From the IMG/VR virus record IMGVR_UViG_3300048930_000505, positions 1 to 47,780 of that record: a stretch of DNA of 47,780 nt. The stretch is one strand, 5' to 3'. The DNA comes from a virus. Positions 2,347 to 45,696 of the stretch are shown here, piece by piece. The notes beneath the pieces were generated by a model. That model saw nothing but the letters and a program-made list of their open reading frames with translations, searched no databases and was not told the DNA's origin. The stretch's first letter is position 1, and each line of letters starts with the position of its first letter. The position numbers and the translations under genes are program-made.

Positions 2347-2353
2347 GAAAACT

Positions 2354-2827: not shown

Positions 2828-2852
2828 TTGCGTATTTGTTGAAGTTTGTGGC

Positions 2853-2888: not shown

Positions 2889-2910
2889 GCAAATTTTTCT
2901 TTGCCGAAAA

Positions 2911-2941: not shown

Positions 2942-2970
2942 GCGAAAGAAAAAGCGAAGCGAAAAAACAT

Positions 2971-4218: not shown

Positions 4219-4301
4219 CCCCTCCCCCACTCTCGATAGGGGCAAAAAACACGGGGGGAATCAGGAGTAAGGGGAGGGGGAACGATAAAAACAGCTTTAC
4301 A

Positions 4302-4724
4302 ATGGATACCTCAACAATTCTGTGCGCTGCCGGCCTTCTGATTGGACTGGCATACGTTTGGTCGAGAAAGACCAAGGCAGACGGCCGTGCATTCTTTTGG
4401 GCAACAATTTCAGAACCCCTGGACTACCGGACAGAGGACATTGACGACACGACCGTAATCGAGCGAGCAAATGAAGCCAGGCGCAACCTCAAAGAGCACG
4501 GGAATCCATACCTGAACGACGACGATATTTGGGAGTATATCTATGGAGCAACCCCCGGAACAGAAACACGCGACTTCTCACAATGGCGCGACTTTGTTGC
4601 ACTCGACGTTGTGAAGCGCCGGGAAGCATGGAGAGAGCAAAAACGCAAATGGAACCCAGACGCTGCAAAGCATCATTTTGCAGGCGAAAAAATCCAAGAT
4701 GGAAATACTGCAAGCCATAACTGA
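4302..4724 (+). CDS. single-span membrane protein with charged helical domain (140 aa)
   Basis: An N-terminal membrane segment (TILCAAGLLIGLAYVW, residues 4-19) is followed by a Lys/Arg stop-transfer sequence and about 115 mostly helical, charged residues rich in Trp and Arg (for example FSQWRDFVALDVVKRREAW). The predicted topology leaves the large domain in the cytoplasm. It has no recognised family. It overlaps the next gene by about 25 bases, in operon style. It may be the scaffold of a membrane complex with the neighbouring products. Confidence 0.65.
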   Translation: MDTSTILCAAGLLIGLAYVWSRKTKADGRAFFWATISEPLDYRTEDIDDTTVIERANEARRNLKEHGNPYLNDDDIWEYIYGATPGTETRDFSQWRDFVALDVVKRREAWREQKRKWNPDAAKHHFAGEKIQDGNTASHN

Positions 4725-5013
4725 TTTCGCCTCCCAAGGCATCGGTGAAATGATTGTCGTGGTAGGAATGCTGCGAGGGTTTGCTTTGATCTTACCTCCG
4801 ATAATTCCAGCCAGGCGAATCGTTTCAAAGCCAAAGCGAAAAGCAGCACAACCAAAACCGACAAAACCGAAAAGGCCGAAACAAGCGCCAAGGCGAAAAC
4901 AGAAAATCAAAAAGGAGCCGAAATATGTCGCACCTGAACTATCAGAATACGAACAAAGGCTATACGACGCCTACCTGCTTAGAAGAGCAGGAATGGCAAA
5001 CAGTTGGGCTTGA
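4699..5013 (+). CDS. membrane protein with Lys/Pro-rich linker (104 aa)
   Basis: The start at 4699 (MEILQAITDFASQGIGEM) gives one hydrophobic segment, IVVVGMLRGFALILPPII (about residues 19-36), then a long Lys/Pro/Arg stretch (PKPTKPKRPKQAPRR) and a short helix PELSEYEQRLYDAYLLRR. The basic linker could bind DNA or phospholipid close to the membrane. An in-frame start at 4678 is also open. It overlaps both neighbours. No family is recognised. Confidence 0.6.
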   Translation: MEILQAITDFASQGIGEMIVVVGMLRGFALILPPIIPARRIVSKPKRKAAQPKPTKPKRPKQAPRRKQKIKKEPKYVAPELSEYEQRLYDAYLLRRAGMANSWA

Positions 5014-5401
5014 AGAAGCACAAAAAAATCAGCTCGATCTATACTATCAAGGCCGGGACAAAGTAGTTGTGCATCAGCCAAAACAATCCACTGAAACAGT
5101 CATTCGTGAAGAACAATTTGGGACGGTGATTCGATTGGCAAAGCCATTGGCAGCAGGTGTTGCAATCGCTTCCGGCGCTGGTATTATCGTGAATACAGCT
5201 ATCGGAATAGGTGCCGCAGTCCTGCAATTCATCAATGCAAATGCACTATTGATCGGAGGCTCATTTTTTGCCATTGGCCTTATCTATTCGGCCGCACTGG
5301 CATTTTTCCAAAAACAACCAAAACAAGCCGGGCCAAATGATTCAGGCGAATGGGAGTTTTACCAGAAGCAGGAACAGGGCTGGCGAAGGAAAGAAAAATG
5401 A
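4925..5401 (+). CDS. membrane protein with two hydrophobic segments (158 aa)
   Basis: A polar N-terminal region of about 68 residues is followed by two hydrophobic hairpin segments, LAAGVAIASGAGIIVNTAIG and LLIGGSFFAIGLIYSAALAF, then a Gln/Lys-rich polar tail. It overlaps the previous gene by 89 bases in another frame, so its true start may be further in. It overlaps the next start by ATGA. No family is recognised; it probably works in the membrane with the other products of this operon. Confidence 0.55.
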   Translation: MSHLNYQNTNKGYTTPTCLEEQEWQTVGLEEAQKNQLDLYYQGRDKVVVHQPKQSTETVIREEQFGTVIRLAKPLAAGVAIASGAGIIVNTAIGIGAAVLQFINANALLIGGSFFAIGLIYSAALAFFQKQPKQAGPNDSGEWEFYQKQEQGWRRKEK

Positions 5402-5805
5402 ATAAATCCCAAAAGGGCTGGCTGCTCTATATAATGGTTCACCTTCCGTTCGTTTTTTTTATGAAGGTTGGTATAACCTCTTTGTCAATCGGAGCAATGG
5501 CTCGGGCAAAGAGTATAGATCGAACCATGCCAGGCTTCCCGCTTCCGATATTTGCCGTTCCTATCCCTGGGGCCTACTACGTTGAACAAGCGCTTCACCA
5601 AATGATGAAGCGATTCAAAGTCGTTTTCTACAAAGGGAACGGCCGAAAAGAGTGGTTTTTTATGGCACCTGCGTTTGTAGCTTTGCCGATCATGGTCGGA
5701 GTATGGTTCATGTACCTTATGCTGTTAGATCGTGCAATAGGAACGAAAATAGCGCCTACTCTGGCAAATTACATTTTTGAGGTTGTTTACTATTTTTTAT
5801 CCTAA
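5398..5805 (+). CDS. GIY-YIG-type nuclease with C-terminal membrane segment (135 aa)
   Basis: The start at 5398 lies in an ATGA overlap with the previous gene. Residues 10-87 fit the T5orf172-like GIY-YIG layout: LYI (10-12) for GIY, MKVGIT (22-27) for YIG, a following arginine (R36), the metal-binding glutamate in YVEQALH (E63) and the terminal GNGRKEWF (81-87). A membrane segment follows at about 89-110 (APAFVALPIMVGVWFMYLML), and a second hydrophobic stretch ends the protein. GIY-YIG enzymes cut DNA; a membrane-attached one could attack DNA as it enters the cell. That role, and even the activity, is inference. Last gene of the operon. Confidence 0.6.
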   Translation: MNKSQKGWLLYIMVHLPFVFFMKVGITSLSIGAMARAKSIDRTMPGFPLPIFAVPIPGAYYVEQALHQMMKRFKVVFYKGNGRKEWFFMAPAFVALPIMVGVWFMYLMLLDRAIGTKIAPTLANYIFEVVYYFLS

Positions 5806-5836
5806 AAAAACCCCGGACGAAATACATCGCCCAGGG
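5804..5836 (-). terminator. terminator of the late (minus) operon
   Basis: On the minus strand, hairpin CCCTGGGCGA...TCGTCCGGGG (8 pairs, two mismatches, 6-nt loop; 5811-5836) is followed by seven T. It lies 31 bases past the endolysin stop and faces the plus-strand operon that ends at 5805. Confidence 0.7.
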
Positions 5837-5867
5837 CACTACAAAAAAAATCAAATATCCTGTGCTT

Positions 5868-6335
5868 TTACGGGTCCACTATCAAAAAGCCTTCTTTCGG
5901 GTGCCACCCCTCAATGCGTGGGCGAGTATCCAAATGCACCCAAGTAGGCGTGAACCTCAAATTTTCAATGGTCGTAAGTCCTGCCGCTTCAAATTCAGTG
6001 CTATTGGCCAGAATTAGGTCCAATACCTGCGGAGGTTTCAAGCCAACCACCTTTACATCTGCAGCGCATCCGCGCCGGTGCTGACTTAGCTTGCCGCCGG
6101 TGCTATCCCATGGCGCACGATACCCAGATGAATCGAATTTCCCGTTACGAGTGAACCAGTTGTTCACCCAAACCGGAGCGCCTGCTTTTTCTCTGATTAG
6201 ATCACACACGCGAACAATTCGCGGATCAATCAGGCATGCGGCTTTCCAGCCCAACGCCTGCCAAGTGCGTTGATCTACAAACTCGACTACATCAAACCAC
6301 TTCGAGCCGTGAAGCGGAATTGCTTGTGTATTCAT
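5868..6335 (-). CDS. peptidase M15-like endolysin
   Basis: The 155-residue protein starts at the ATG at 6335 (an upstream TTG at 6341 adds two residues). Zinc-site motifs of D-Ala-D-Ala carboxypeptidase-type M15 enzymes are visible: SQHRRGCAADV (H86, D93) and TWVHLD (H134). The enzyme would cut peptidoglycan stem peptides or cross-links to release progeny. It has no signal peptide or cell-wall-binding domain and so needs a holin, and two candidates lie just upstream in the same operon together with a spanin pair. It is the last gene of the late transcript. Confidence 0.88.
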   Translation of the reverse strand: MNTQAIPLHGSKWFDVVEFVDQRTWQALGWKAACLIDPRIVRVCDLIREKAGAPVWVNNWFTRNGKFDSSGYRAPWDSTGGKLSQHRRGCAADVKVVGLKPPQVLDLILANSTEFEAAGLTTIENLRFTPTWVHLDTRPRIEGWHPKEGFLIVDP

Positions 6336-6349
6336 GGCCAATATTATTG

Positions 6350-6377
6350 GCGGCCCCCAATCTTTATCGGGGACCGC
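6350..6377 (-). terminator. hairpin between holin candidate and endolysin
   Basis: GCGG-c-CCCC pairs with GGGG-a-CCGC around a 10-nt loop. No T tract follows on either strand, so it is more likely an attenuator or RNA-processing hairpin that sets the endolysin level. Confidence 0.3.
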
Positions 6378-6389
6378 ACGTTAGGGAAG

Positions 6390-6866
6390 TTACATTGTCA
6401 AAACAGGGTCATTCAGTTTTTGCTGTTTGAAGTATCGGACAATCGTTGGAATTACCGTCTGTCCAAGCAGCGCAAAAAGAGCCATCCAGTCTTTTGTTCG
6501 TACTGCCTCAAACCCGGCTTCAATAGTTCCTTCTGGAAGAACAAACCCATAAATGGCCAAAGCCGAAAAAAAAGCGTTCGCCAAGGCAATCCAGGTCAAC
6601 CAGGACGACCGAAGTGCATTCCAAAGCCCTTTTAACGTCGTGGCCCCTGACTTGAACGCATTCCAAACCGGAACAATGAACGATGAAAAAAGCAGGGCGC
6701 CCAATGCCCAAACACCTCCCGTGCTGAGCGTCGTGGTAATCTCTCCAGCGAGAGTCGGAGTGTCTTGGCCAAATGACACACCAGCAGCAGCTAAAAGGAC
6801 CAGGATAAAGCTGATGATTGAGTAAATAAAGCCTGGGCTTTTGGGGTCAAAAACTTTCTTTTGCAT
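6390..6866 (-). CDS. membrane protein, holin candidate (158 aa)
   Basis: Three hydrophobic segments are visible: YSIISFILVLLAAAGVSF (about 15-32), GVWALGALLFSSFIVPVW (51-68) and WIALANAFFSALAIYGFVL (92-110), followed by an amphipathic C-terminal half with LFALLGQTVIPTIVRYF and a Lys/Gln tail. Size and position directly before the endolysin gene suggest a holin that would open the inner membrane. It is longer than many holins and no family motif is certain. The smaller two-segment protein at 7463-7687 is the alternative. Confidence 0.5.
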   Translation of the reverse strand: MQKKVFDPKSPGFIYSIISFILVLLAAAGVSFGQDTPTLAGEITTTLSTGGVWALGALLFSSFIVPVWNAFKSGATTLKGLWNALRSSWLTWIALANAFFSALAIYGFVLPEGTIEAGFEAVRTKDWMALFALLGQTVIPTIVRYFKQQKLNDPVLTM

Positions 6867-6893
6867 AGGTTTTGTGTTTATGCGCGTAGCGCG

Positions 6894-7154
6894 TTATTGA
6901 GTGACTGGATGCCAAGCCGGATAGGCAATGATTAAGGTGTCGTTACGGATAACAACTTTTTTTTCTTTGCCAAGTAGCCTTTTTGCCTCCCTTATTTTTT
7001 CCGCAAACTCGTTTCGTTTAACTGTCAGGCTTTCGCCTGAACAATAAAGGTTCATTTCCTGCGCTGGCGCATCAATGTGCAATTCGTGCTGAGCTTTGTG
7101 GCACCCTCCCATCAGTGCAAGTAGCGCCAGTATCGTTGTGAAAATTCGCTTCAT
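6894..7154 (-). CDS. outer-membrane spanin-like lipoprotein (86 aa)
   Basis: The signal sequence MKRIFTTILALLALMGGC ends in a lipobox (LMGGC, lipidated Cys18). The mature part is short and charged, with a helix NEFAEKIREAKRLLGKEKK and a beta end. It overlaps the upstream gene by ATGA, and that gene encodes a protein with one N-terminal membrane segment and a coiled coil. This matches the two-component spanin design, in which the o-spanin lipoprotein joins an i-spanin to fuse the two membranes during lysis of Gram-negative cells. Sequence alone does not prove it. Confidence 0.6.
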   Translation of the reverse strand: MKRIFTTILALLALMGGCHKAQHELHIDAPAQEMNLYCSGESLTVKRNEFAEKIREAKRLLGKEKKVVIRNDTLIIAYPAWHPVTQ

Positions 7155-7441
7155 CTTTTTATGCTTTTTAATATGTCATTCAAGTCATTGACTTGACGCT
7201 GTGTTTTTTCCAATTCTACACGCTGAATGCTGTCAATTTTGGCTCTCCAATACTGTTCGCACCGCATTACTTGCTCAAAGCAATCTGTCTGATAGTCAAA
7301 ACGCCTATTTGATACGGATGCTATTTCTGTATGTAGTTGAACTACATATCCAGACAAACCAAATATTGCGAAAACCATCACCGCAGCGATGGAGGCAGTG
7401 AAGTTCTCTTTGAGCGCTTTTATCAGAGTGCCAAATTCCAT
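7151..7441 (-). CDS. inner-membrane spanin-like protein (96 aa)
   Basis: A short cytoplasmic N-terminus (MEFGTLIKALKENFT) precedes one membrane segment (ASIAAVMVFAIFGLSGYVV, about 16-34). The periplasmic part is helical and heptad-like to the end (RVELEKTQRQVNDLNDILK). This is the usual i-spanin topology, and the o-spanin-like lipoprotein gene overlaps its stop by 4 bases. Two cysteines in DCFEQVMRCEQ could form covalent dimers. It acts after the endolysin has removed peptidoglycan, if the assignment is right. Confidence 0.6.
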   Translation of the reverse strand: MEFGTLIKALKENFTASIAAVMVFAIFGLSGYVVQLHTEIASVSNRRFDYQTDCFEQVMRCEQYWRAKIDSIQRVELEKTQRQVNDLNDILKSIKR

Positions 7442-7462
7442 AGGTGAAGCGTTTCATTAGGA

Positions 7463-7687
7463 TTAGAAACCAATGGCGCCAAAAAGCCAGTTTCCCCACT
7501 TCCATACAATGTCAGCGAGGAAAACTACAATAGTGCCACCGACAACAAGCGAAACAACAACAGCCCAAAAAACCTTTTCCCAGGCTTTAAGCTGATTCCA
7601 AATGTTTTCAACGTCTTTTCGACGCCCGACCATTATTGCTGCAATTATCGCTGCAAATGCGGCGGTTCTTTTTCGAATTTTTATCAT
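7463..7687 (-). CDS. small two-segment membrane protein, second holin candidate (74 aa)
   Basis: Two hydrophobic segments (AAFAAIIAAIMVG, residues 9-21; KVFWAVVVSLVVGGTIVVFL, 38-57) are joined by a polar loop, and the N-terminus is basic (MIKIRKR). Size and topology fit class II holins or antiholins. It is placed with the spanin pair and the 158-residue membrane protein. Which of the two is the holin cannot be told from sequence; they may be a holin-antiholin pair. Confidence 0.55.
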   Translation of the reverse strand: MIKIRKRTAAFAAIIAAIMVGRRKDVENIWNQLKAWEKVFWAVVVSLVVGGTIVVFLADIVWKWGNWLFGAIGF

Positions 7688-8055: not shown

Positions 8056-8880
8056 CTAAATCCGTACAATGCTACCCTCCACATTATAGGTGCATCCGGT
8101 GAAGGTTCCACTTGTTTTGATCGTAATTGCTGTGGATGCCTTGCATCTGATCTGCAAATGCCCGCTTGGGTATGGTACGGCACCGGAGGGCGAAATAGTT
8201 GTAGCAATCCACGCCCCTGTTGAAATCCGCAAAATCGGAATTATAACAGACCTTGCTGTATTTCCCTCGTCGGTATAATCGACCACAAGCGAAAAAGCCT
8301 CAGCGCTGCTTGTTGTTATGAGGATATTGCCAGACACATCATAACTGGCATCTGCACCGCCTACGGTAAGCGTCGCCACGCTTGCAACCGCCGCCGTTTG
8401 ACCTGTCGATCGCCCTGTTACAGCGTCACGGCCACCATTCCCATAAGGAAGTGTTCCTGTTACCGCGTCAGCGTCGGCAAGGTCAAGAGCACCCCAACCG
8501 TATGTATTAGTACCTGTTACCCTAAGCACCTGACCGCCGGTCGAGCTGTTAGGGATTGCTGTAAATGCGCCCGTGCCGTTACCCTGGAGCAAGCCGGTAA
8601 TGGTTGTCGCGCCGGTTCCCCCCTGTGCAACCGTAACTACGGCATTATCTGTCAGAATCGTTGCTGATGCGTTAGGCAGTGTGAACGTCTTTGTGGATGA
8701 TGCCGGGCCGGTAAACGCTGTAAAGCCGTTTCCAATGCTATGTGTCCGCACAGCAAGGAAGTTGGTTATCCACGACTTGCCCGGGTCAAAAACCGACACC
8801 CGCGTCGTATCGTGCAGCGTCGGCTGTGCAAATGCAGATAGGCTGCACAATAGGAAAAATATAATCAGGTTGTTTTTCAT
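8056..8880 (-). CDS. tail fibre-like protein with Sec signal peptide (274 aa)
   Basis: The start at 8880 overlaps the upstream stop by ATGA and gives a clear signal peptide, [19 protein letters not shown] (cleavage before Q19 likely). The mature part has low-complexity fibre repeats typical of phage tail fibres ([33 protein letters not shown]) and a beta-rich C-terminal domain ending with a Cys-containing strand ([13 protein letters not shown]). Known fibres bind cell-surface receptors. An export signal on a virion protein is odd; the protein may instead be displayed or released by the host cell. Confidence 0.8.
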
Positions 8881-10322
8881 CGCAAAAGGTCCCATGTATT
8901 GTTACCTGAATTACACATGCACTCGATGGTATTGCCTTGACCGTAAAAGGATTTTGTTGAGGCCCCATCAAAAAAGGTCTGTGTTGAGTTCGGGTCAAGG
9001 ATGAATGCAAAAGCATCAGTACCCCTCTTCATAAACTGATAACGCCACCCATCGCGTGTAGCATTGCAGTCTGGGAGGTTGATTGTAATATCAGCCGTCA
9101 GCGTCCCTACGTACACAACCCTGTCGTTTTCATCCACAGTTGCCGTACTTGTTACTGCCCGGTATGCGTGTTCCTCTACGCCGTCAACTTCAAGAGCGGC
9201 AAGTGATGCGGTACTGGTGAATGTTGCGGCCCCTGAGCCTATGATCTTCCCGTTGAATGTTTTTTGCCCGGCAAAAGTCTGGGCGCTGGTAGACACCGTT
9301 CCGCGGTTTGATGCGTCGGCGTTGGGTAGATTCAAATTAAGAGTGCTGGATGATCGGCTAAATCCAATAGCTGCCGCGTTTGTCGTGATTGCCGGCGTGT
9401 AATAGATATTTGCCGTTCCGTTACTACCAAATAGCGTAACGTCAGCGCCTACGGATGTTAGTCCAGTACCACCATTGGCAACACCCAAAGTTCCTGTTAC
9501 CCCTGTGGTAAGTGGCAGCCCGGTACAGTTAGTAAGCACGCCAGATGTAGGCGTGCCAAGAAGTGGCGTGGTAAGTGTTGGGGAGGTGGCGAAAACCAAA
9601 AGACCCGTTCCTGTTTCATTTGTTACGGCTGCAGCAAGGTTTGCGCTTGTTGCCGTTCCCAAGAAAGTAGCCATGTTTGCCGCCAATCCAGATACGCCAG
9701 TGCTGATCGGCAGGCCAGTGCAGCTTGTCAGCGTTCCGCTCGATGGCGTACCGAGTGCTGGTGTTACCAGGGTCGGAGAGGTAGCGAACACAAGGGCACC
9801 GCTTCCGGTTTCATTTGTTACGGCTGCAGCAAGGTTTGCGCTTGTTGGAGTTGCAAGGAAGGTAGCTACTCCGGTACCAAGCCCAGACACGCCCGTACTT
9901 ATTGGCAATCCGGTGCAGTTTGTAAGCGTCCCGCTTGTTGGAGTTCCAAGCACCGGAGTAACAAGCGTCGGCGATGTAGAAAGCACCACCGTCGAGCCCG
10001 TTCCCGTGGTAGATGCCGCCGTTAGCGCACCACCGGACGCACCCAATACGGTTGCCGTTACTGTTGTGGCAAGGGCGATGGCAGGGGTTGTCGTTCCATT
10101 TGTGATGGTAAAGTCAAACCCGTTTCCGTCCGTACCGGATACACTTGTCACCGTACCGCCGCCCGTGGCGTAGCTCAGAACGTAGTCCTTTACCGCCGAC
10201 ATATTCGTGATGTGAATAGTGTCGCCCTGCTCTACCTTCACCTTTGTAGCGCCCCAAATGGTAGGCTGTGCGCTTGCATATCCTGCCACAAAAAGCAGGA
10301 GAAAAAATAGTGTTTGTTTCAT
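8877..10322 (-). CDS. repeat-containing tail fibre-like protein with signal peptide (481 aa)
   Basis: The signal peptide is [19 protein letters not shown]. Residues 116-288 hold two and a half 65-residue repeats with [19 protein letters not shown] and [14 protein letters not shown], very like the shaft repeats of many phage fibres, ending in [11 protein letters not shown] collar-like [20 protein letters not shown] follows. The last 80 residues form a module ([28 protein letters not shown]) that is paralogous to the end of the next gene upstream (10340-11278), so the tip domain was duplicated. It probably forms trimeric fibres. The stop overlaps the next gene by ATGA. Confidence 0.85.
9459..9977 (-). 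repeat. 195-bp tandem repeats in the fibre gene
   Basis: Units begin at TSPTL (residues 116, 181 and 246 of the fibre): two full 65-residue units and one partial, about 80 percent alike. The repeat also keeps an antisense frame open, which is not a gene. Confidence 0.85.
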
Positions 10323-10339
10323 TGTCGTGTTTATTTGCT

Positions 10340-11278
10340 TTAGAAGTTGTCAAAAAACCAAACACCCGTGCCACCGTTAAACCGGCAGGTGCAGTCTATT
10401 GATACCTTCCCAAAAAAAATCTTCGTTGGCGTGCCGTCGTAAAACTGCTCTGTGCTTGACGGGTCAATAGTCACGCTGTACGCTGTATCCGTGCCATTGC
10501 GAACGAATTTGAATCGCTTACCGTCGAGCGCTGCGTTGCAGGATGGCAGGCCGAATACCGCCGCGCCGGATAGCGTACCTATCAGCACTTCATTAACGGC
10601 GCTGGTGATGGTCGCCCCGGATGTGACGAACGTGTAAGGGTTGCCCCAGCTTGGTTCCCATGTCGCTCCTGTCCACATTAACACCTCAGACGTTACCGCG
10701 CTTTGTTGTGCGATTTTCAACGGGTCGCCGCCGCTGCCATCGCCCGAAAGCGTCGCGTCTGTGGCAACTGTTGCAATTCCGCCGGAACTTGAAAATGTCA
10801 GTGTGTCGCCGGATAGCGCCGCCGTTACGTTGCTTCCCTCCCTCACAAATACATCATTACCCGTGCTTGAATTAAGGCGGTAAAGCGTTGCAGATACCTC
10901 CGTCCATGAAAGGTTGGTACTGCCAGCAGATGCGCAAGTCAGACAGAGCCATGCACTGCCATTCCATTCGTATAGCTCAGGTGTTGCGCAGGTGTTTGTG
11001 ACAACCTTGGACTGATATTTTTCAGGCGTATAAGCCGGAGCGGCACAACCTGTAATTTTTTGCACGACGCTGCCCATTTTTATCCAGTTTGTCGTGTTTC
11101 TGTCCATCGAAATGTACCAATCCATTGTTTGCGTATCCAGGGCAACAATAGAGCCACGTGCGCCAGGTCGAAACGTTGGCGCCCCGTCAGTCTGTGCAAG
11201 GCCGGGATTGGCTACGATATTATTCTGCGAAAAGCAAAATACCGGAGCAAACAACAATATGACGACAATTCGATTCAT
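10340..11278 (-). CDS. tail fibre-like protein with signal peptide (312 aa)
   Basis: It starts with a signal-like segment, [18 protein letters not shown]. The N-terminal mature part ([20 protein letters not shown]) resembles virion or host surface-protein attachment regions, and the middle is beta-rich with Ser/Thr/Gly. The C-terminal 75 residues ([39 protein letters not shown]) are paralogous to the tip of the 481-residue fibre, with cysteines conserved in CNA and in CTC/CMC. The start overlaps the upstream stop by ATGA. It may be an alternative receptor-binding tip. Confidence 0.78.
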
Positions 11279-11631
11279 TTTTTTTGCTTTTTCCTTCGAC
11301 CAAGGAAGGATTTATTCTCTTCTGCCACAATTCGCATTTTATCGGCCAATTCTTCCAGTTTTTCGGCCTGCTTAATCTTTTCTTCCGCTTCTTTTCTGGC
11401 AGTTGTTGCCTGCTCAATAAATTGATCAGAAAACAGGAAAAACTCTTCTGCCGACCGAAATAGCTGGTATGTGATCAGCGTTTGGGGTCTTGGGATTTCT
11501 TTGGTTGCTGTTCCGATAACTTTTTCTACCAAGTAGAAACTGTCTATGGAAATTGGATCAATCTCGTAGCTATTCGTTTGAGCGAATGAAGCAAATGGAA
11601 TGAGCAGAAACAGGATAAATTTGATTTTCAT
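11275..11631 (-). CDS. exported coiled-coil protein of the fibre cluster (118 aa)
   Basis: The signal peptide MKIKFILFLLIPFASFAQ is followed by a short beta region and a long charged helix (ATTARKEAEEKIKQAEKLEE and beyond) with heptad spacing, and a very basic end, GRRKKQKK. It overlaps the next gene by ATGA. A coiled coil with a basic tail could join fibres or act as an exported partner or chaperone. No family is recognised. Confidence 0.65.
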   Translation of the reverse strand: MKIKFILFLLIPFASFAQTNSYEIDPISIDSFYLVEKVIGTATKEIPRPQTLITYQLFRSAEEFFLFSDQFIEQATTARKEAEEKIKQAEKLEELADKMRIVAEENKSFLGRRKKQKK

Positions 11632-11640
11632 GTGTGAAAC

Positions 11641-12009
11641 TTAATGTGAAAAAGTGATTCCTGAATTTGCTGATATTGCCTCCAAGTAGTCAATTACCGC
11701 CTGCTCAATGGCATGTATCAGCTTTGCCGTGTCGCCGGTTCCTGTGCCTGTGTATGCGTCTATGTCGGACTTTCTAAACGTGACAGTGAACTCCACAACT
11801 TCGACAATATCAGCGCCGCCGGGAGTAACCGTGCATGTTACCACCCAGTTCTCCACAAACGGGTTGTATTTTGGCGAAACATAGATGTCCGGGTTGGTAT
11901 AGCTTGACAGCGCTCCATCTGCCAGATACACCTGGCCTCCGGTGCTGGATATTTGTGCTTGTGCAGATAGGCTGCACAGAACCGACAAAATGATGATGAT
12001 GTGCTTCAT
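11641..12009 (-). CDS. small exported protein of the fibre cluster (122 aa)
   Basis: The start at 12009 overlaps the upstream stop by one base (TAATG). The signal peptide is MKHIIIILSVLCSLSAQAQ. The mature part is beta-rich with GGQVYLADGALSSYTNPDIY and VVEFTVTFRKSDIDAYTGTG, then a helix AIEQAVIDYLEAISANSG. The repeated start context and signal type show that it belongs to the exported fibre block. Its function is unknown. Confidence 0.68.
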   Translation of the reverse strand: MKHIIIILSVLCSLSAQAQISSTGGQVYLADGALSSYTNPDIYVSPKYNPFVENWVVTCTVTPGGADIVEVVEFTVTFRKSDIDAYTGTGTGDTAKLIHAIEQAVIDYLEAISANSGITFSH

Positions 12010-14234
12010 TAGTATCCCCAAAAGTTAAAGGTTAATGCGTAAGCGGTTGAAGCCGGTAGGGTCCCAACTGCCTTGAATTCAAATGTAGCTGCATCCGATT
12101 CGTTGATTTTGAACTTCAAAAAATCATTTGCGGCATTGTCACCACTTTCAGCAGCCACATCTGCACCGGCCGAAAATGTGACAAATGATTTGGTTATGAA
12201 TGATGTTGGATATGTTAAGGTAAATATTACACCGTTAGCTGTTGGCGTGGTCCCAGTGCTAAATTTGATGTAAAACCCGTTTCCGGTGCCAACAATCTCA
12301 GTAAGCGTTGGCCCGGTTCCGGCCCCGTTACCAAAAGCAACGTTCCCAGCAGTGAAGGCATTACCCTCACCCATGAACAAATCAGACCTCGTGCGGCCTT
12401 CAACTGTCAAAGGGTATGTCGGGAATACGTTGTTTATTCCGACGTTTCCCGTCCCTGCATTATTGCGAACTGTAATACCTCTATCAAACTCGCCTGGCCT
12501 AAAGGCATCTGGCGTTATTTTGAACCGATCATCAGTATTGTCTATGCCAATGGAATGGGTCATTTGCCCATTCACAGAGAACTGCATCAATGCGTCACCA
12601 GCGTTGGCTCCGCCTGATTGCATTAGAAAAACAGTATGGTTATCAGCACTCTGAGTGTTGGAGTTCAGCATCTCCATCCACATGTTGCCGTTTATGTTAC
12701 CTGACATTCGTAGGAATGTCATGGCACCAGCGATTGCGCCAGCATTCAGGTTTAGAATGCCGGTATTTGCACCGATACCCGCAGTGGTGCCGGTGAATGT
12801 TGCCCTATCCGTTGCACCGTTGAATGTAAATGCCGCATCACTTCCTATCTGGTCATTCGCGGTCCAAAGGGCAAACCGATCTACAACGCCGGTCATTCCG
12901 AGTATGGTTTGTGCCTGTGCCCTGGTAAGTTCTTCGATAATTCCGTTTGCGCCTGAAATACGACCAAGGAAACGGTCGTCATTGACCACATTTTGAATTT
13001 TAGCATACGTGACAGCATCATCCAATATGCCGCCGGTAGCAACCTGGCCAAAAGCCAGCGCCGTGCCTGCTGTATTTACCCGCAGAACCTGGTCGGCTGT
13101 ACCCTGAATGTCGGCAACGTTTGCGGCAGCATTGCCCGTCACGCCAATCACAGACCGGGCCGCTCCCTGCCTGATTTTCGCATTAGAGATCGAGTTGTCA
13201 ATTACGTCCATGACAATCTCCGTTTCGTTGTTTACTGCGTCATCGGTGAGTGTCGCACTTACCCTTCCTGATGATATAAAGTTTGCGTTTACACGCTTTG
13301 TTTCGTCGGTTCCGTTATCTCTAAGGCCTTGGTAGGACAACCCTGTCACTGCCAAATTCCCAGCAGTTATTTGCAGGTTTGTGCCAACACCCAAAGAGGC
13401 CAGGTCGCCATCACCATCGGCAGCCAAAAGAAGCGTTGGCGTGTCGGTTGTTAGGTCCCTAATTCGCACCTCTCCATTCACATCCAGTTTCCGCGCTGGC
13501 AAATCAGTGCCAATACCAATCCGATCATTTGAACCGTCAGCTACCAAAAGTGTGCTGTCGGACAAGTCCCCGATGTAGAGGAAACGACCATCTATGTTCA
13601 CTTTCCGATTGTCGGTGAATGGGGCATCAGGGCTACCCATGTAGCGATTCCCAAGGCGTATTTTGCCGCCATCCTCGTTATCAGATACACCGTTGTTTGC
13701 CTCAACACTTCCACCTCCACCAAGGCCGGTCGTATCTACTGAAATCGTCAGCGTATCTACGTTGTAGGAGAATATTGTTGCGGCGCCTGCCTGAAAAAAT
13801 ACCGGCGAATCATCCTGTGAAAGAGTCAGCCTTGCTGTATTCACATTGAAGCTATCAATGTGAAGGTCCTGGGACCTGTGAGGTGCCGTGAAGTTGCACC
13901 ACGTCGAATCTGCCATTCCCTGAATCGAGAAAAATCCTGTTAGGGAAAGCGGGATAGTAACACGCTCGCTGTAGGGGTTTGCACCATGCTCCCAATATTC
14001 AACCAAATTCCCAGGCTTTACTCGTATGCTGTACGGCTGATCAAGCCAACGATAATAATTCCCATCCCTGAAAATCACCAATCCGTTGAATGAACGGCTT
14101 TGCACGATGCTACTCGGGCAAATGTCACAACTATCACCACTCAATCGCGATCCGCTTTGGCATTCAAAGGTATAGACCTGGGCATGTGCGCAAGTGAACC
14201 ATATAAAAGCCAAAATGGAGAATAAAAACTTCAT
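12009..14234 (-). CDS. large tail fibre-like protein with signal peptide (741 aa)
   Basis: The signal peptide MKFLFSILAFIWFTCAHAQ precedes a Cys-rich N-terminal region (FECQSG, DSCDICPSS) of about 180 residues. The middle contains IGIGTDLPARKLDVNGEVRI, a motif shared by phage fibres and exported Bacteroidota proteins, then long fibre-like beta repeats (ILDDAVTYAKIQNV, FLGRISGANGII). A C-terminal beta domain starts near GTGNGFYIKFSTGTTPTANG and ends in ALTFNFWGY. There is no S74 chaperone domain that I can see. It is probably the main adhesin of the cluster. Export would place it in the periplasm or on the surface, unlike normal virion assembly. Confidence 0.82.
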   Translation of the reverse strand: MKFLFSILAFIWFTCAHAQVYTFECQSGSRLSGDSCDICPSSIVQSRSFNGLVIFRDGNYYRWLDQPYSIRVKPGNLVEYWEHGANPYSERVTIPLSLTGFFSIQGMADSTWCNFTAPHRSQDLHIDSFNVNTARLTLSQDDSPVFFQAGAATIFSYNVDTLTISVDTTGLGGGGSVEANNGVSDNEDGGKIRLGNRYMGSPDAPFTDNRKVNIDGRFLYIGDLSDSTLLVADGSNDRIGIGTDLPARKLDVNGEVRIRDLTTDTPTLLLAADGDGDLASLGVGTNLQITAGNLAVTGLSYQGLRDNGTDETKRVNANFISSGRVSATLTDDAVNNETEIVMDVIDNSISNAKIRQGAARSVIGVTGNAAANVADIQGTADQVLRVNTAGTALAFGQVATGGILDDAVTYAKIQNVVNDDRFLGRISGANGIIEELTRAQAQTILGMTGVVDRFALWTANDQIGSDAAFTFNGATDRATFTGTTAGIGANTGILNLNAGAIAGAMTFLRMSGNINGNMWMEMLNSNTQSADNHTVFLMQSGGANAGDALMQFSVNGQMTHSIGIDNTDDRFKITPDAFRPGEFDRGITVRNNAGTGNVGINNVFPTYPLTVEGRTRSDLFMGEGNAFTAGNVAFGNGAGTGPTLTEIVGTGNGFYIKFSTGTTPTANGVIFTLTYPTSFITKSFVTFSAGADVAAESGDNAANDFLKFKINESDAATFEFKAVGTLPASTAYALTFNFWGY

Positions 14235-14821
14235 TAAAGTGACATCTCAGGGATTTCCAAAAATTCCACGTCGAAAATCATCTGAATGCTTTCGCGAGCG
14301 GTTTTCCCTTGGTTGAATGGAATGCTTGCATTTACATAAAACGGCTGAATACCTTCATCACCGCCAACAATTCTATGCTTTTCAACTCCTGCAACAACGC
14401 CGCCAATGGTTACGATATAAACCGTAAAGTCCTTTTTGTTGCGTTGAAGCTGACGAGCAAATGACACATGCCCGTCGTCAATATATGGCACATTTAGCGT
14501 CAATCGGTACACAAACTCCCTGTTTTCCACAAGCCTGCCGCCTGCCAGCGTTGCTTCGGTTTGGCTTAATGGCAAAAAGCTGCCAAGGCCAGCGACAAAG
14601 TGCGCAAAAGTGGAATCTGTGTTGTCAATATGGCCATCGTCGAACCATGAATCAAAGTCGTTCCATGTGCCGGGCCATGTTGCACCAGTTGGCCGAATAA
14701 TAACCCCACACACCTCCGACAAAAGCTGAGGGTACGAAACACAGTCCTGTATTTCTGGGAAAGCAGGAATGTCAATCTCCCCGCAGACGTCTGTCGGAAG
14801 GTATGTGAATGGGTTTAGCAT
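14234..14821 (-). CDS. phage structural protein, paralogue A (195 aa)
   Basis: The N-terminal motif PAFPEIQDCVSYPQL is shared with the next upstream protein (PAIPEVQDCTSYEQV), so the two genes are paralogues. The rest is beta-rich with a Trp-rich loop (GATWPGTWNDFDSWFDDG) and ends with FDVEFLEIPEMSL. It overlaps both neighbours by one base, so it is part of the late operon. Position after the capsid gene and before the fibres suggests a tail tube, collar or fibre-base protein; the identity is inference. It has no signal peptide. Confidence 0.7.
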   Translation of the reverse strand: MLNPFTYLPTDVCGEIDIPAFPEIQDCVSYPQLLSEVCGVIIRPTGATWPGTWNDFDSWFDDGHIDNTDSTFAHFVAGLGSFLPLSQTEATLAGGRLVENREFVYRLTLNVPYIDDGHVSFARQLQRNKKDFTVYIVTIGGVVAGVEKHRIVGGDEGIQPFYVNASIPFNQGKTARESIQMIFDVEFLEIPEMSL

Positions 14822-15426
14822 TACGCAAGCGGATTAATTCGACGGTCGGGGTCGCCAGATGCAAGCCATTTGATTTTCAAAACAGCAATATCGCGATCAT
14901 CCTTGCCGCCTCCTTTTGGGAAAGTAACGGTTACTTTTTTGGGCACGATACCTCCCTGCTTGCCATAGACATACTGAGTGCCACCCATGCCGGACGCATA
15001 GTAAAAAGTCAAATCAGTGTTTCCGCATTGCACTTGTTGCAGGAATGCGTACATAGCGTCATTGAGGTATTTGATATTGAAAATCAAATCATATTCAAGC
15101 TGCTCTGTTTTTTCCTGATTCATTGGGTAGTCCAGAACCGTTTCGGCTGGTTCAGCAATTCCACCCTCCCCGACAATAAACTTTGCCTTTACGTTGGTTG
15201 CATCCGTGTTATCTATCGCGTTTGCGGTAGCTGTCGGAGTGGTGGCAAAGTTGGTGAATGGGTCGGCAGAAGAAACGCCCCCTACCTGGGGCATAAGGTA
15301 GATAGTGTGAATCTGGGACTTCACCTGCTCGTAGCTGGTACAATCCTGAACCTCTGGAATCGCAGGAAGCAGGTTATCGTCGTCGCAATCTGCCGGACAA
15401 GTGGTGAATGAGTTTATAGTAGGCAT
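14821..15426 (-). CDS. phage structural protein, paralogue B (201 aa)
   Basis: It shares PAIPEVQDCTSYEQV with paralogue A and begins with a Cys/Asp-rich segment (TTCPADCDDDNLL). Strands in the middle (EYDLIFNIKYLNDAMYAF) and near the end (RDIAVLKIKWLAS) match corresponding strands of its partner (RLTLNVPYIDDGHVSFARQL). Such duplication is common in tail tube or baseplate ring proteins that form mixed rings. It has no signal peptide. The exact role is unknown. Confidence 0.7.
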   Translation of the reverse strand: MPTINSFTTCPADCDDDNLLPAIPEVQDCTSYEQVKSQIHTIYLMPQVGGVSSADPFTNFATTPTATANAIDNTDATNVKAKFIVGEGGIAEPAETVLDYPMNQEKTEQLEYDLIFNIKYLNDAMYAFLQQVQCGNTDLTFYYASGMGGTQYVYGKQGGIVPKKVTVTFPKGGGKDDRDIAVLKIKWLASGDPDRRINPLA

Positions 15427-15431
15427 TGTGT

Positions 15432-16484
15432 TTACACTATTGAGAGTGAACGAGAAAACCTGTTTTCCGGCTTACACATGAAGCAATCAGTAAGACCCTT
15501 TTTGGGTAGGTTTTGTGCTACCCAACGGATATTGTCTGAATACCGACTATTCAGATACGTTCGGCGGGATGCCAAACTTTCTATCTGATAGCTTGTGCAA
15601 GGGTTTACCAGGATAGTATCAATCAGTTTTGAAATCGCTATCGCGGCGCCTCTAAATTGAAGCGAGCGAGCCAATACGTCGCGGAGGTGGTATCCGTTGA
15701 GCTCTTCGAGCTCACACACCCATTCCAACTCTTCGCAGATCAGGAAAGCGTCAAGCGCCATTCCAAACCCAGCGCTCGAAAAAGTGCCGTATGTCGCCTC
15801 GTTATCCGACGCCTGAAATCCTGAAACATACAAATGGTCCATCCACCCGGGATGTTTGCCGCAGCAAGTCACATTGTTGTTCCTTGGCGTGGCGCCATTC
15901 CTGTCAAAAGCAATGTAGTATTCCAGCCATTTTTCTTCGCACGTCCTCGAATACAGTGGCAGCTCTATTTGCGTCGTTAAAACCTTTTGCGTCATGGTAT
16001 TTGCCGAAACAAGTACAACCTCCACAGGGTCCGGCGAAACAAAAAGCGGGTCGTTGCTTTTGATAGTTACAGTGTACGTTCCAGGGGTATCAAGCGCCAG
16101 AAATATTTTTTTGAGTACCAGCTTCGCACCTTTCTGGTTTTTTGTGCGAACTCTGAGCCCCAAAAAATCATGAGTGACGAGCCTGGAACCGGTTGACGTT
16201 AATTGGGCAATAACTCCCGAAAAAGGACTGATTGAGCCGTCGTATTTCTCGCGAAGTGCTGCCCTCAAATCTGATTTAATTTCGAGAATTGCCTGCGTTC
16301 GAGCCGCTTGAAGGAGCTCCCAACCGTCAAACGCGCATTGGTCAATGATCGTCAGACCGTAGTCAGTATCCGTCAGGTGATACCCACTGTCAGACGTATC
16401 GAAGCCCTCTGGCGCGTCGTCTGTAAAGCAGGAGTATTCCTGTTTAGATAATCCCACAAGCGTATCGAAGCAGGCAACACTCAT
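15432..16484 (-). CDS. virion-associated hypothetical protein (350 aa)
   Basis: Soluble and Cys-rich (at least 11 cysteines, for example SVACFDTLV, DQCAFDGWELL, VTCCGKHPGW, CFMCKPE). An N-terminal helical part (residues about 48-80) is followed by a beta domain (GTYTVTIKSNDPLFVSPDP) and a helical end with RDVLARSLQFRGAAIAISKL. It has no signal peptide, although its upstream neighbour has one. The location between capsid and tail proteins suggests a head-tail connector or neck role; I recognise no family. Confidence 0.65.
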   Translation of the reverse strand: MSVACFDTLVGLSKQEYSCFTDDAPEGFDTSDSGYHLTDTDYGLTIIDQCAFDGWELLQAARTQAILEIKSDLRAALREKYDGSISPFSGVIAQLTSTGSRLVTHDFLGLRVRTKNQKGAKLVLKKIFLALDTPGTYTVTIKSNDPLFVSPDPVEVVLVSANTMTQKVLTTQIELPLYSRTCEEKWLEYYIAFDRNGATPRNNNVTCCGKHPGWMDHLYVSGFQASDNEATYGTFSSAGFGMALDAFLICEELEWVCELEELNGYHLRDVLARSLQFRGAAIAISKLIDTILVNPCTSYQIESLASRRTYLNSRYSDNIRWVAQNLPKKGLTDCFMCKPENRFSRSLSIV

Positions 16485-16975
16485 TACTCCGTGGCTTTGA
16501 TATTGAATTCGATGTTTCTGGCAATGGTGTTCGTGCCCGTTTTCACAAAAGCAATCCGATGAAAAGCACCATATACAGTTCCACCCCTTAGCCTGAAAAA
16601 TAGTTTTGTCGAATCAGCGCCGGAAACAGAAACGCTATCAATAGCCGACCAAATCGCGCTATTCGCATTGTTTCGTTCTTCAAGCCTGATTTTCACATTG
16701 GGAGTGCCTGCAATCTTTCGCATTTTGAAAAAATACTGGTATTGATATGCAGACTTCATGTTCCAAGGCACATACACATAGGTTGTGCCAGCCGCAGACA
16801 TGGTATCCAATGGTAAAGACCGCTGCTCTCCACCGCCCATAGGGGCATAAAACTCAACGGTTTGGCCAGCTTCATCCGTATAGGTAACGGCTCGATCTGG
16901 CATGTCAAAGGCTGATACTGCCACCATGCATAAGATCAGCGTCAAAAGGCCAAAAATGGCATAGGATTTTTTCAT
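16484..16975 (-). CDS. exported beta-sandwich-like protein (163 aa)
   Basis: The signal peptide MKKSYAIFGLLTLILCMVAV continues SAF. The mature part is all-beta (YQYQYFFKMRKIAGTPNVKI, STKLFFRLRGGTVYGAFHRI) and looks like a jelly-roll or Ig-type domain. It lies directly after the major capsid gene and one base before the next gene. Head decoration proteins are often beta-sandwiches at this place, but a decoration protein would not need export. It is the first of seven signal-peptide genes in the late block. Confidence 0.68.
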   Translation of the reverse strand: MKKSYAIFGLLTLILCMVAVSAFDMPDRAVTYTDEAGQTVEFYAPMGGGEQRSLPLDTMSAAGTTYVYVPWNMKSAYQYQYFFKMRKIAGTPNVKIRLEERNNANSAIWSAIDSVSVSGADSTKLFFRLRGGTVYGAFHRIAFVKTGTNTIARNIEFNIKATE

Positions 16976-17034: not shown

Positions 17035-18108
17035 TTACTCGGTAGAGAATTGCAAAACGCCCTTCTCTCCGTTCGGGCCGGTTGGTGCGAATTCAAAGCC
17101 GCCAATCAGACGGGCATAAATGCAATACTGATTTTGTTGGAATTCCTGAGCGTCACGGCCGACACAAGTCACAGCCATTTCAAACTCATACAGCACCGGA
17201 GAAAGCACCCCGTTGTTGTTCCAGCTCAGGATTGGGTCGGCCTGAACCCATACCCATTTTTCACCATCAGCAGTTACCACCCGGCGAGGGGTAGTCGTGT
17301 TTCGAACAGTGTTCCAGAAAGCATAGGAATTTGCATTGACGGCAAACAGGGTTTTGCGCGTCATTTTCTGGTCGAGGTCACGAAGGTCGAAGTAGATTTC
17401 CTGCTGAGCGTAGGCAAGCGCCTGGTCGCGGAATCCTTCATTCATTCGGTTCAACTGAGAGCGCCAGCGATCGTCAGACAGCAAGCGCCCGGAAACCATG
17501 AAAAAGTCGTCGAAGTTGTTCAGCATCGCGACCGTTTGGAATTCATTGAAACGCTCGTAGGTGAAATCGGCCGTGGGAACAGTAATTCGAGGGCTGTTCG
17601 AGGTGTAATCCCACGTCGAATCAATTTGCGTATCAATGTTCACCTGAGAGGCCGCAGCAACTCCCGCAATCACGACATCCCGATTGAATGCAACGCGCAT
17701 CTGGGACATCATGTGTGCCTGTTGTGCCGCAATTTCTTCGGCGAATTGAAGCAAATTGTCCGAACGGTTGTCAAGGACTTTGGACTTTGAGCGCACCAGA
17801 ACGGTGCTTTCGTAGTCCGCTTTGATCGTTTCGGCCTCATCGCCGCAAGGAACATCGCAATCCGCCGGTGCCGTAGTGGCCGCGTTGGTTGCTGCATGTG
17901 GGCGAATATACCACGCTTCAACGCCCACAACAGTGTTTCCCGTAAGGCGGGGAATCACTCGTGAACGTTGGCGGGCGAGCATAGCGCGCGCAGTAGATGC
18001 GCTGCCTGCTTTGAGCTCAGTTTGTGCGGTGTTTGGAGCTGCAAACATTTCTTCAAGTCGCACCTGGGCGACTTGAAGCGCGGAATCGGTAAAATCTCCG
18101 GCTGCCAT
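17035..18108 (-). CDS. major capsid protein (HK97-fold type, by context)
   Basis: A 357-residue soluble protein that directly follows the scaffold-like gene. An N-terminal helical arm (residues 1-50, MAAGDFTDSALQVAQVRLEE) leads to a segment rich in strands and to the long helix region LLQFAEEIAAQQAHMMSQMR. Later parts (YERFNEFQTVAMLNNFDDFF, MVSGRLLSDDRWRSQL) and a beta end with FEMAVTCVGRDAQE resemble Bacteroidota phage capsid proteins in style. Hairpins on both sides would isolate its mRNA, as expected for the most abundant product. The assignment rests on length, position after scaffold, and composition, not on a catalytic motif. Confidence 0.8.
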   Translation of the reverse strand: MAAGDFTDSALQVAQVRLEEMFAAPNTAQTELKAGSASTARAMLARQRSRVIPRLTGNTVVGVEAWYIRPHAATNAATTAPADCDVPCGDEAETIKADYESTVLVRSKSKVLDNRSDNLLQFAEEIAAQQAHMMSQMRVAFNRDVVIAGVAAASQVNIDTQIDSTWDYTSNSPRITVPTADFTYERFNEFQTVAMLNNFDDFFMVSGRLLSDDRWRSQLNRMNEGFRDQALAYAQQEIYFDLRDLDQKMTRKTLFAVNANSYAFWNTVRNTTTPRRVVTADGEKWVWVQADPILSWNNNGVLSPVLYEFEMAVTCVGRDAQEFQQNQYCIYARLIGGFEFAPTGPNGEKGVLQFSTE

Positions 18109-19507: not shown

Positions 19508-19586
19508 GGGTAAAGTTTTGTTTGAAGCAAATACTGTGCAAAAATAATCCACTTTTGCAAACTTTGCGCGAATTTTCGCAAAATAA

Positions 19587-22268
19587 TTATTTGCCTTTTG
19601 GAAGCACTGTCTTTTTTACTTTCATTCTGCCATTGGTAACAACCTCTTTATACCCATCTTTCCAGGGGTAAACCGTTGGTTTTGCCTGAATCGCTTCAAC
19701 AATCCTATCGCTTGCGGCTTGATAGGCTTTTGCCAAATCAGCCTGCTTTTGTGCAGATTCTGCTCTTTCCCGGCGTCGTTCGAGCGATTTTATCCGTGGC
19801 GCCGCGTCTGACAATGGGCTTTCATGGTCACTAATGCCCTCTGCCATACGGTAGAGGTCCCGGCCTCGGTATTTGCCCCTGTTGAGGTTTGCCAGGAACT
19901 TGTCATGCTCTTTAGAGTGCTCGGTGCCAACGAGCCACTCGTCCTTTTCAACTGCAAAAATTCTTCGGCCGTCGAATACTAAATCCTCATTACCCTGCTC
20001 ATGGGTATTGCCGTCAAACTTGCGGCCCTTGCGCAGCTTTGGCGGCTCAGTGGCTTTCAATGCACGCGCCTTGGCTGTTGCGAAGGCTCCGAACATTAAG
20101 CCGATAGTCCCAATGGCCAGGCCAATACCAAGCGGACCCAGTGACGAAAGACTCTTGAAAATGTTTACTGAGCTTGTAATAAGGCCGGATAACTGAACGG
20201 CGCTATCCAAATAAATCTGTGCCCGTCTGGCTTTGGCTTCTTCCTTGGCTGCGTCGTCGCGCAGCTTTTTGGCTGTCGCCAGTTCCTGCTTTTTCAGGTC
20301 AACATTATTAGCCAAGCCCTGTTTTGCGTACTCTTGCTCCTTTTCAAGCGCCTCTTCTGCAGCCTCAACTTTTTCCTGTGCTGCTCTTGTCGCGGCCTCC
20401 GCTTCGTTAATTCTCGCCTGCGCCAACTCATTGAGCGAGTTGATAATTGAGCCGATTGACTTTCGAATAGCTTCTTCCTGCCCTGGCGGCAACTTAATGC
20501 CGAGAATGTCGAAAAGATTGATTGGTTGGCCGTCAGGTCCTTTTTTGGGCTCTGGTATGTCAATGCCCTTCAACAGGGTTTCGATCTCTTGAATCCGAGC
20601 TCGAATAATGTCTGCCTCCGGGCCAGACGCATTGAGCGCCAACAGCGCTTTTTGGTAGCGTAAATCAGCCTCCAAGCGTTGTGCCTGGATACGCTTGTTG
20701 AACTCGTTTTGCTGCTCTTTTACGGCCTGCTCATCGGCGCCTCCTGCCCGAAGCATTGCGACAAAATTGGCAAATTCTGCCTGGGTAATGTCAATGCGTG
20801 CATTTTCAAGTTCATTGGCCTGAGCAAGTGCCGCCTGGGCGTCTTTAATTCTGCCCTCGTCAGCCGCCTTTTTGGCCTCTTTCCGCTTTTCTTCTGCTTC
20901 GGCTTCTTTCTGTATGCCGTCGAGAATTGCGTCAAGGATTTCCTTTTCACCCTGTTCGATGGTATCAACAATCCGGTCCTGCAATTTTTGGCGTTGCTCG
21001 ATTTCTTTGTCGGACAATGGCCGCAGCTTCTCTACTTCTGCGATCTTTTTCAGGCCGTCCTGTATTGCCTGGACCTGAGCGGTAATGCCTTGGCGAATTT
21101 GTTCAACCTTCTTTTCTGTTGGGTCCTCTTGCAAATCAATGTCAAGGCGAGAAAGCAATTTGCTAACGTCGTCAAGGTTCTTCGTGATGAAGTCGGCACG
21201 CTCCTTTTCGAGCGCATTAAGTCGCTGCAATAGCCCAAGCCGGTTTTTCTCGGCATTGCTTCGCACCTCCATCACTTCTATTTCCTTTTTGATCAGCTTT
21301 TCCTTTTCTGCTGCATTCTGCGTTGAAAGCTGAAAAGCGGTGCGTGCATACTGTAATTCCTGCTCGGCAAACCCGACGCGAATTCTCGAAATTTCCCCCT
21401 CTATTTCGATAGCCTTTTTCAGCGATGCGATACGCTGATTGTAGGTCAAATTTTCTTTCCCGGCAGCCTCTTGGGCCTTTTCACTGGCCGATACGAGCTT
21501 TGCCGTAGAAATAGCGGCAGCGAACTGCGCATCCCTTAGCTTTTGAAGTGCCAACTCATTTGCGTCTGCTGCTGCAGCCGCGTCGTATATGGCACCTCCT
21601 ATGTTATTGAATGCCTGACCGAATGCAATGGCGGCCCCTGAATAATCCAAGGTAATGAACTTATATATCCCTTCGGCCAAAAAACTAAGCCGCTTTATAA
21701 CGACATTGATTGCGGCGTCAAATACCGCACTTGCCCGAGCGGCTGCGTCAATAACCTCCTGATACTTGAACAACTGCTGCACCAGCTTCGCAACTAATGC
21801 AACGATGAAGCCGATAGGAGATGCTTTCAAAACCGTGTCGAAAATTCGCTGTGCGACCGTCATGCCCTTGGTAGCGGCTTCTGCGCTTTTGGTAGCGGAT
21901 GCCGCCTGGTTGGTAGAAGCTGTGGCTTGGTTCAAAGTGGAGGCCATTGCAACGTTCTTTTTGATACCCTCGTTTTGGGCTGCTGCAAGGGCCTCCTGGG
22001 CCTTTCTGTGGGCTTCAATCTCTTTACGAAACTTCTCCTGTTTGGCAATTCTATCCTGAGCGCCGGCCGCAAGGCGTTCCTGGGCCTGCTTGTATGCTTC
22101 AAGGGATGCGGCAGCCCTTTCTGCATCTGAAGCAGATTTGCCCATGCCGGCAGAGATAGCATCCTGCGTGCTTTCGGCCGTTTTACCGGTCTGCTCTAAT
22201 TTTGCAGCAATCTTGTCCAGGCTGTCAAGGATTTGCTTGTCGTCAGATGTCAGCTTTAAATCTACCAT
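19587..22268 (-). CDS. tail tape measure protein
   Basis: At 893 residues this is the longest protein. It is rich in Ala, Lys, Glu and Gln, with long coiled coils (for example AAAEKARKAQEAL-type stretches near residues 60-110 and 430-480) and two hydrophobic segments, ASPIGFIVALVAKLVQQLF (about 148-166) and GPLGIGLAIGTIGLMFGAF (about 730-748). These are standard tape-measure traits; the protein sets tail length and may enter the cell membrane. It directly follows the frameshifted chaperone pair. Its length would predict a tail near 130 nm if the usual 1.5 Angstrom per residue holds. It precedes scaffold and capsid genes, an unusual order. Confidence 0.93.
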   Translation of the reverse strand: MVDLKLTSDDKQILDSLDKIAAKLEQTGKTAESTQDAISAGMGKSASDAERAAASLEAYKQAQERLAAGAQDRIAKQEKFRKEIEAHRKAQEALAAAQNEGIKKNVAMASTLNQATASTNQAASATKSAEAATKGMTVAQRIFDTVLKASPIGFIVALVAKLVQQLFKYQEVIDAAARASAVFDAAINVVIKRLSFLAEGIYKFITLDYSGAAIAFGQAFNNIGGAIYDAAAAADANELALQKLRDAQFAAAISTAKLVSASEKAQEAAGKENLTYNQRIASLKKAIEIEGEISRIRVGFAEQELQYARTAFQLSTQNAAEKEKLIKKEIEVMEVRSNAEKNRLGLLQRLNALEKERADFITKNLDDVSKLLSRLDIDLQEDPTEKKVEQIRQGITAQVQAIQDGLKKIAEVEKLRPLSDKEIEQRQKLQDRIVDTIEQGEKEILDAILDGIQKEAEAEEKRKEAKKAADEGRIKDAQAALAQANELENARIDITQAEFANFVAMLRAGGADEQAVKEQQNEFNKRIQAQRLEADLRYQKALLALNASGPEADIIRARIQEIETLLKGIDIPEPKKGPDGQPINLFDILGIKLPPGQEEAIRKSIGSIINSLNELAQARINEAEAATRAAQEKVEAAEEALEKEQEYAKQGLANNVDLKKQELATAKKLRDDAAKEEAKARRAQIYLDSAVQLSGLITSSVNIFKSLSSLGPLGIGLAIGTIGLMFGAFATAKARALKATEPPKLRKGRKFDGNTHEQGNEDLVFDGRRIFAVEKDEWLVGTEHSKEHDKFLANLNRGKYRGRDLYRMAEGISDHESPLSDAAPRIKSLERRRERAESAQKQADLAKAYQAASDRIVEAIQAKPTVYPWKDGYKEVVTNGRMKVKKTVLPKGK

Positions 22269-45695: not shown

Positions 45696-45696
45696 A

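Follow-up and report, generated by a model that had tools for sequence, protein, structure and literature searches.

Six consecutive minus-strand genes of the window, as the whole analysed stretch of 47,780 nt is called here (a stand-alone 47.8-kb IMG/VR virus record), encode predicted preproteins with type I signal peptides of the Q-rule kind, and together form a fibre block (8056–14234) in the late region. Judging from sequence, the proteins of the block are very probably processed and exported, and their fibre nature can be assumed with good confidence. The best explanation, to which a probability of about 0.4 is assigned, is that a late tail-fibre module has been converted to Sec export, so that its proteins would fold and be stored in the periplasm and dock on virions at lysis.

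The late genes of the minus strand run in the order TerL (30335–31729), tail genes, tape measure (19587–22268), scaffold-like gene, probable major capsid gene (17035–18108, without signal), 16484–16975, 15432–16484, two paralogous genes (14234–15426, 195 and 201 aa), the fibre block, and a lysis region (5868–7687) with an M15 peptidase (weak Pfam match), membrane proteins and an o-spanin-like lipoprotein (6894–7154). Capsid, scaffold and tail-tube roles were given by position, without family matches; the capsid gene follows the scaffold-like gene, and the paralogues are tail-tube-like by position only. Single-sequence scans with terminase, capsid and 16484–16975 returned no relatives, profile scans of 28381–30291 and 22434–23003 matched L089 alone, a contig which stops before the fibre block, and a scan of genome contigs gave three MAG contigs only, all from other phyla. 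A clade of IMG/VR phages was found with a TerL-pair profile. Beyond the late block, small lipoproteins were predicted at 36296–36646 and 44868–45299 (..SLISC, ..FAISC), and the window edge (43–654) carries near-identical 20-residue repeats of the type GGSLDLRGCDLKGITLPTSV.

An earlier note on this DNA had claimed seven late products with signal-type N-termini, most of them with Q-type sites. All seven were present, on the minus strand, and were of Sec type according to our own scanner (threshold ≥5.5), with a basic n-region, a hydrophobic h-region and small residues at −3/−1 in each. The threshold was reached by exactly these seven of the ca. 78 window ORFs. A small residue followed by Q at +1, the Bacteroidetes Q-rule site, was found in six of them (starts at 8880, 10322, 11278, 11631, 12009 and 14234), with the Q-type claim failing for the gene starting at 16975; the remaining ORFs of the window had no site of this type. 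With predicted cleavage marked by a slash, the N-termini from 11631, 12009 and 14234 are MKIKFILFLLIPFASFA/QTN, MKHIIIILSVLCSLSAQA/QIS and MKFLFSILAFIWFTCAHA/QVY, and that from 16975 is MKKSYAIFGLLTLILCMVAVSA/FDM (AVSA/F). Of 2338 ORFs in control IMG/VR loci, 19 passed the scanner, five of them with Q, and shuffled N-termini passed in 0.3% of trials; the probability of Q at +1 in at least six of seven proteins is 1e-7 under a 5% background. For the 8056 gene, an upstream ATG at 8895 was rejected, 8880 being the likely start.

A Bacteroidota host is implied by the six Q+1 sites taken together with the predicted Q-value in Bacteroidetes (mean 71%, and >48% in 332 of 334 species; Bochtler 2018, PMC5837995), and distant relatives of window genes in Croceibacter and Parabacteroides phages agree with this prediction. 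A lipobox with Cys at +1 was absent in the seven signal proteins (+1 is Q, or F in 16484–16975), and the signal-bearing proteins gave no Pfam or NCBIfam match to a T9SS C-terminal domain. Since neither was found, the periplasm is the expected location, and ordinary surface display is argued against.

At least three of the six Q-rule proteins are fibres by tail-fibre homology. Homology to annotated tail fibres was found for 8877–10322, 12009–14234 and family members of 10340–11278; regions of the block match tail fibres of Pseudomonas, Nitrincola, Limnohabitans and other phages, and fibre stretches match annotated tail fibre, tail spike and virion structural families. All six genes lie on the minus strand. 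Gene 8056–8880 (274 aa) is classed as fibre-like only by the resemblance of its N-terminus to that of 8877–10322. The latter encodes a 481-aa tail fibre (...GYASA/Q) with repeats that recur in signal-less fibre-like genes of the Manatee Spring podoviruses and of Pseudomonas phage PfAn1, and it has a C-terminal domain in common with 10340–11278, a 312-aa fibre (...FCFS/QNN). The small protein of 11275–11631 (118 aa, ...SFA/Q) may, from its position, correspond to the 204-aa partner described below, and a test for homology between the two found none. Gene 11641–12009 encodes a small fibre partner (122 aa, ...SAQA/Q), and 12009–14234 a large tail fibre (741 aa, ...AHA/Q) with a Cys-containing N-terminal domain after the signal and a body (residues ~298–740) homologous to fibres of three other IMG/VR loci (L088, L171 and L172). 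Residues ~228–265 of the large fibre hold the motif IGIGT..P..KLDVNG, also present in the phage families phrog_13535 and phrog_9563. Flavobacterium phage FCL-2 (L232) has a Q-rule protein at 45363–45806 which is phrog_13535 and carries IGIGT..P..LDVNG in like manner. Apart from the signal-bearing set, no fibre-like genes were seen within the window.

The seventh signal-type gene, 16484–16975 (minus strand), encodes a 163-aa protein with a hydrophobic N-terminus and a non-Q site, and lies between the capsid gene and 15432–16484. Positional homologues beside the capsid gene in three relatives each have a hydrophobic N-terminus, longer and with no clear cleavage site, the homology being remote (hhalign E 1.5e-4, probability 51%). 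This gene is non-Q-rule, non-fibre, and separate from the fibre cassette.

The paralogous neighbours (14234–14821 and 14821–15426; 28%, 1.5e-18) had been put forward as a sharp signal-less contrast to the block. They do lack signals, but they are not a matched control, since no relation to the signal-bearing proteins was detected. A proper control is offered by relatives in which the homologous fibre and partner lack a signal. In L088, L171 and L172, the body of 12009–14234 adjoins a homologue of the partner 11641–12009, neither with a signal; in L088 the given start is the first in frame, so that no signal can be added upstream. The partner homologues of L088, L171, L172 and L237 begin where the mature window protein does, with Met opposite its Q+1. 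Signal-less homologues of the partner occur also in the phages G016 and G017 (L237 in the latter). In G016, G017 and G021, where the head and packaging gene set differs from that of the window, a tail-tip protein gene, signal-less in G016 and G017, lies downstream of the tape measure, and the C-terminal part of its product is weakly similar (25–32%) to the 12009–14234 body. Because homologues in other lineages adjoin tail genes without signal, fibre and partner appear to be ordinary cytoplasm-made tail parts elsewhere, with the signal probably added to both in the window.

A search of related phages for the same signal-plus-fibre block, suggested in the earlier note, recovered the N-terminal domain of 10340–11278 in 38 IMG/VR loci, with a signal and Q+1 in 38/38. 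Of the two search patterns, one contained Q; the count is not circular, because most loci (...FA/QNN, ...SA/QNN) could match only the other. The mature N-domain of the family is QNN...GAPxFxP...GC.APAYTP...PELY.W.GSAW. Among 20 unique relatives of 10340–11278, identity averages 89% in the first 100 columns of the alignment and is near zero in places further on, and the family lengths are 577–990 aa, save for one short frame (L218). Such a conserved N-terminus with a hypervariable C-terminus is what fibres that dock on virions usually show. Some members match tail spike, tail fibre and virion structural PHROGs, and one has a 42% match to a tail protein of Nitrincola phage 1M3-16, itself without signal. 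The mature N-domains of the 20 unique fibres hold 40 Cys, 3.5-fold enriched over the body and with two invariant positions; since Cys-rich proteins occur in the window also among those lacking a signal, the argument from Cys is weak.

In HK97-type siphophages, the signal-fibre gene is located between the tail terminator (phrog_347) and the major tail protein (phrog_1407). Next to it comes the gene of a 204-aa partner that bears a Q-rule signal as well (29 loci, signal in 29/29 partners; most family loci without a partner stop too early to show one). AlphaFold models of signal-fibre and partner were of low confidence, too poor for fold assignment, and viral fold matches gave no more than ‘phage fibre-like C-terminal domain’. 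Some signal-fibres have a ‘PRMTTAQRD..’ C-terminus. A ~372-aa protein with a strong signal (..KTTKVQA/Q) was seen in another phage group (L137 1743–2858, L141 3222–4337, L142 3265–4380), and in L221 (MW202701) the annotated ‘ribonuclease E’ at 19544–20815 is antisense to a fibre-like frame and likely a mis-annotation.

Between G008 and G006, which belong to the terminase clade of the window, and the HK97-type contigs, the cassette is the only DNA in common, and for this reason it appears to move like a fibre module. In the pair L217 (G008) and L190, identity is 96% across the 115 mature residues and 77% at fourfold sites, against 40% for signal codons and 32% for upstream DNA. Neutral drift was ruled out as the cause by the difference between mature part (96%) and signal codons (40%). 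The signal was swapped at the cleavage site between lineages with its function kept, so export is under selection and not a start-codon artefact; this we regard as the strongest sequence evidence.

Strong Shine-Dalgarno motifs are lacking in Bacteroidota as an anchor for starts, and mis-called starts or chance hydrophobic N-termini might be suspected on account of this weak guidance. Such an error is hardly credible when tight overlaps with upstream genes back the starts 8880, 11278 and 12009, the chance of at least six Q in seven is as low as given above, and the signal is conserved across 38 loci. The proposal of the note that the N-termini are uncleaved membrane anchors, which would position the fibres on the inner membrane as an assembly site, could draw on the family of 16484–16975 with its longer hydrophobic N-termini; it is quite improbable for the fibre block, where small residue and Q+1 are strict in all genes as in the 38 relatives, and in the pair with the exchanged signal similarity sets in again at the first mature residue. 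Capture of host exported proteins as lysogenic-conversion adhesins, also raised there, is unlikely from comparisons with phages. The motif of 12009–14234 is real and recurs in the Q-rule gene of FCL-2, and the ‘PRMTTAQRD..’ C-terminus may likewise speak for a host source, but the motif is one of phage families (phrog_13535 and 9563), most of the block matches phage tail fibres and ordinary tail genes of relatives, the genes are embedded within a late operon, and the window genes tested included no recognisable integrase.

A stronger rival, plausible though short of an even chance, is that the exported fibres act at the envelope of the infected cell before lysis (as adhesin in the periplasm or at the surface, receptor mask, superinfection exclusion factor or envelope enzyme) and do not belong to the virion. 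Export is required only for an event that takes place outside the cytoplasm before lysis, G016 and G017 already have a separate signal-less tail-tip fibre, and Matrishin et al. (PMC10367356) suggested that Q-rule proteins of Porphyromonas phages modify the envelope. On the other hand, without lipobox or recognised T9SS C-terminal domain there is no evident route across the outer membrane, the signal-fibre C-termini are unlike the tail-tip fibre of the same phage (G016, G017, G021), and the signal-bearing fibre set is the only one seen in the window. The same dissimilarity led us to reject a decoy of the phage's own receptor domain.

Because lysis frees cytoplasmic fibres anyway, the signal must serve periplasmic folding, segregation from virions, or an envelope task before lysis. 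Folding or segregation followed by docking is favoured by the virion-docking layout, the location in a structural operon, and the lack of another fibre set in the window. In this preferred reading of exported, later docking fibres, the host Sec system would carry the fibre-block proteins across the inner membrane late in infection, and signal peptidase I would cut before Q, which by the established host pathway would be cyclised to pyroglutamate. Folding and oligomerisation of the fibres and small partners would take place in the periplasm, separated from the cytoplasmic assembly of capsids and tails; once the cell is opened by holin, endolysin and spanin-like proteins, the fibres would mix with the virions, and the conserved mature N-terminal domain would dock on the virion for receptor binding. 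The two invariant Cys of the N-domain support periplasmic folding weakly, as signal-less proteins can be Cys-rich. Docking on virions outside the cytoplasm is, as a step of its own, somewhat less than an even prospect: the second, signal-less tail-tip fibre encoded by G016 and G017 counts against it, and given that fibre the signal-fibres may be accessory. Export with a stay in the periplasm but without a virion role fits the same sequence data.

The window block has the signal architecture of Bacteroidetes Q-rule signal peptidase I substrates (PMC5837995; mBio 2023, PMC10653852), with Q+1 in 6/7 proteins against a mean of 71% there; those substrates are host proteins, whereas these are predicted phage tail fibres and partners, for which pyroglutamate is inferred. 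Porphyromonas gingivalis ‘Nixviridae’ prophages likewise have five Q-rule genes in a Bacteroidota-host phage, with function not assigned, and unlike here the text names neither fibres nor a cassette (PMC10367356). Single Q-rule genes are found in Hankyphage, FCL-2 and 6H; that of Hankyphage p00 (L233, 20053–20439, MKRFLLFFVLILGFVSATFA/Q) is in the structural region of an induced Bacteroides prophage. Ordinary caudoviral fibres of Pseudomonas phages PfAn1 and Rollin and of Nitrincola phage 1M3-16 have shaft or repeat sequences in common with the window fibres but no signal peptide. PblA and PblB of a Streptococcus mitis prophage, as described in the review PMC9917116, are likewise phage proteins that become extracellular adhesins; there they are freed by lysis of a fraction of the cells of a Gram-positive host and not by Sec export. 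In the single record of Bradyrhizobium phage ppBdUSDA122-1 (OP596612, L229), an annotated tail fibre and the gene upstream (1947–3395 and 3431–6028) both have a Sec-like signal, without Q at +1 in this alphaproteobacterial phage; signal-bearing fibres may thus extend beyond Bacteroidota, and a search with the fibre N-terminus returned that one record only. Open-licence papers gave no report of signal-bearing tail fibres or Sec-exported fibre modules. Q-rule phage proteins without assigned function are already known, and the putative Sec-exported tail-fibre module is apparently new.

Dozens of uncultured phages carry a like fibre pair within their tail-gene operon, which hints that phage fibres may be built or used in a manner not described so far. 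Tentatively, the virions of many tailed phages of Bacteroidota, and perhaps of some alphaproteobacterial phages, could be finished outside the cytoplasm, with Sec-exported fibres maturing in the periplasm and attaching at lysis. Assembly of tailed phages is taken as wholly cytoplasmic, and such a route, if true, would be a second assembly compartment for Caudoviricetes. The Q-rule signal joined to a fibre domain is a sequence handle for finding such genes, and recombinant fibres of Bacteroidota phages would be made in the mature form, possibly pyroglutamate-capped and possibly disulfide-bonded. A mobile, conserved signal-plus-fibre cassette would mean that in at least some phages part of the Sec capacity goes into fibres, and either a periplasmic stage in virion assembly or envelope-acting proteins built from fibre parts.
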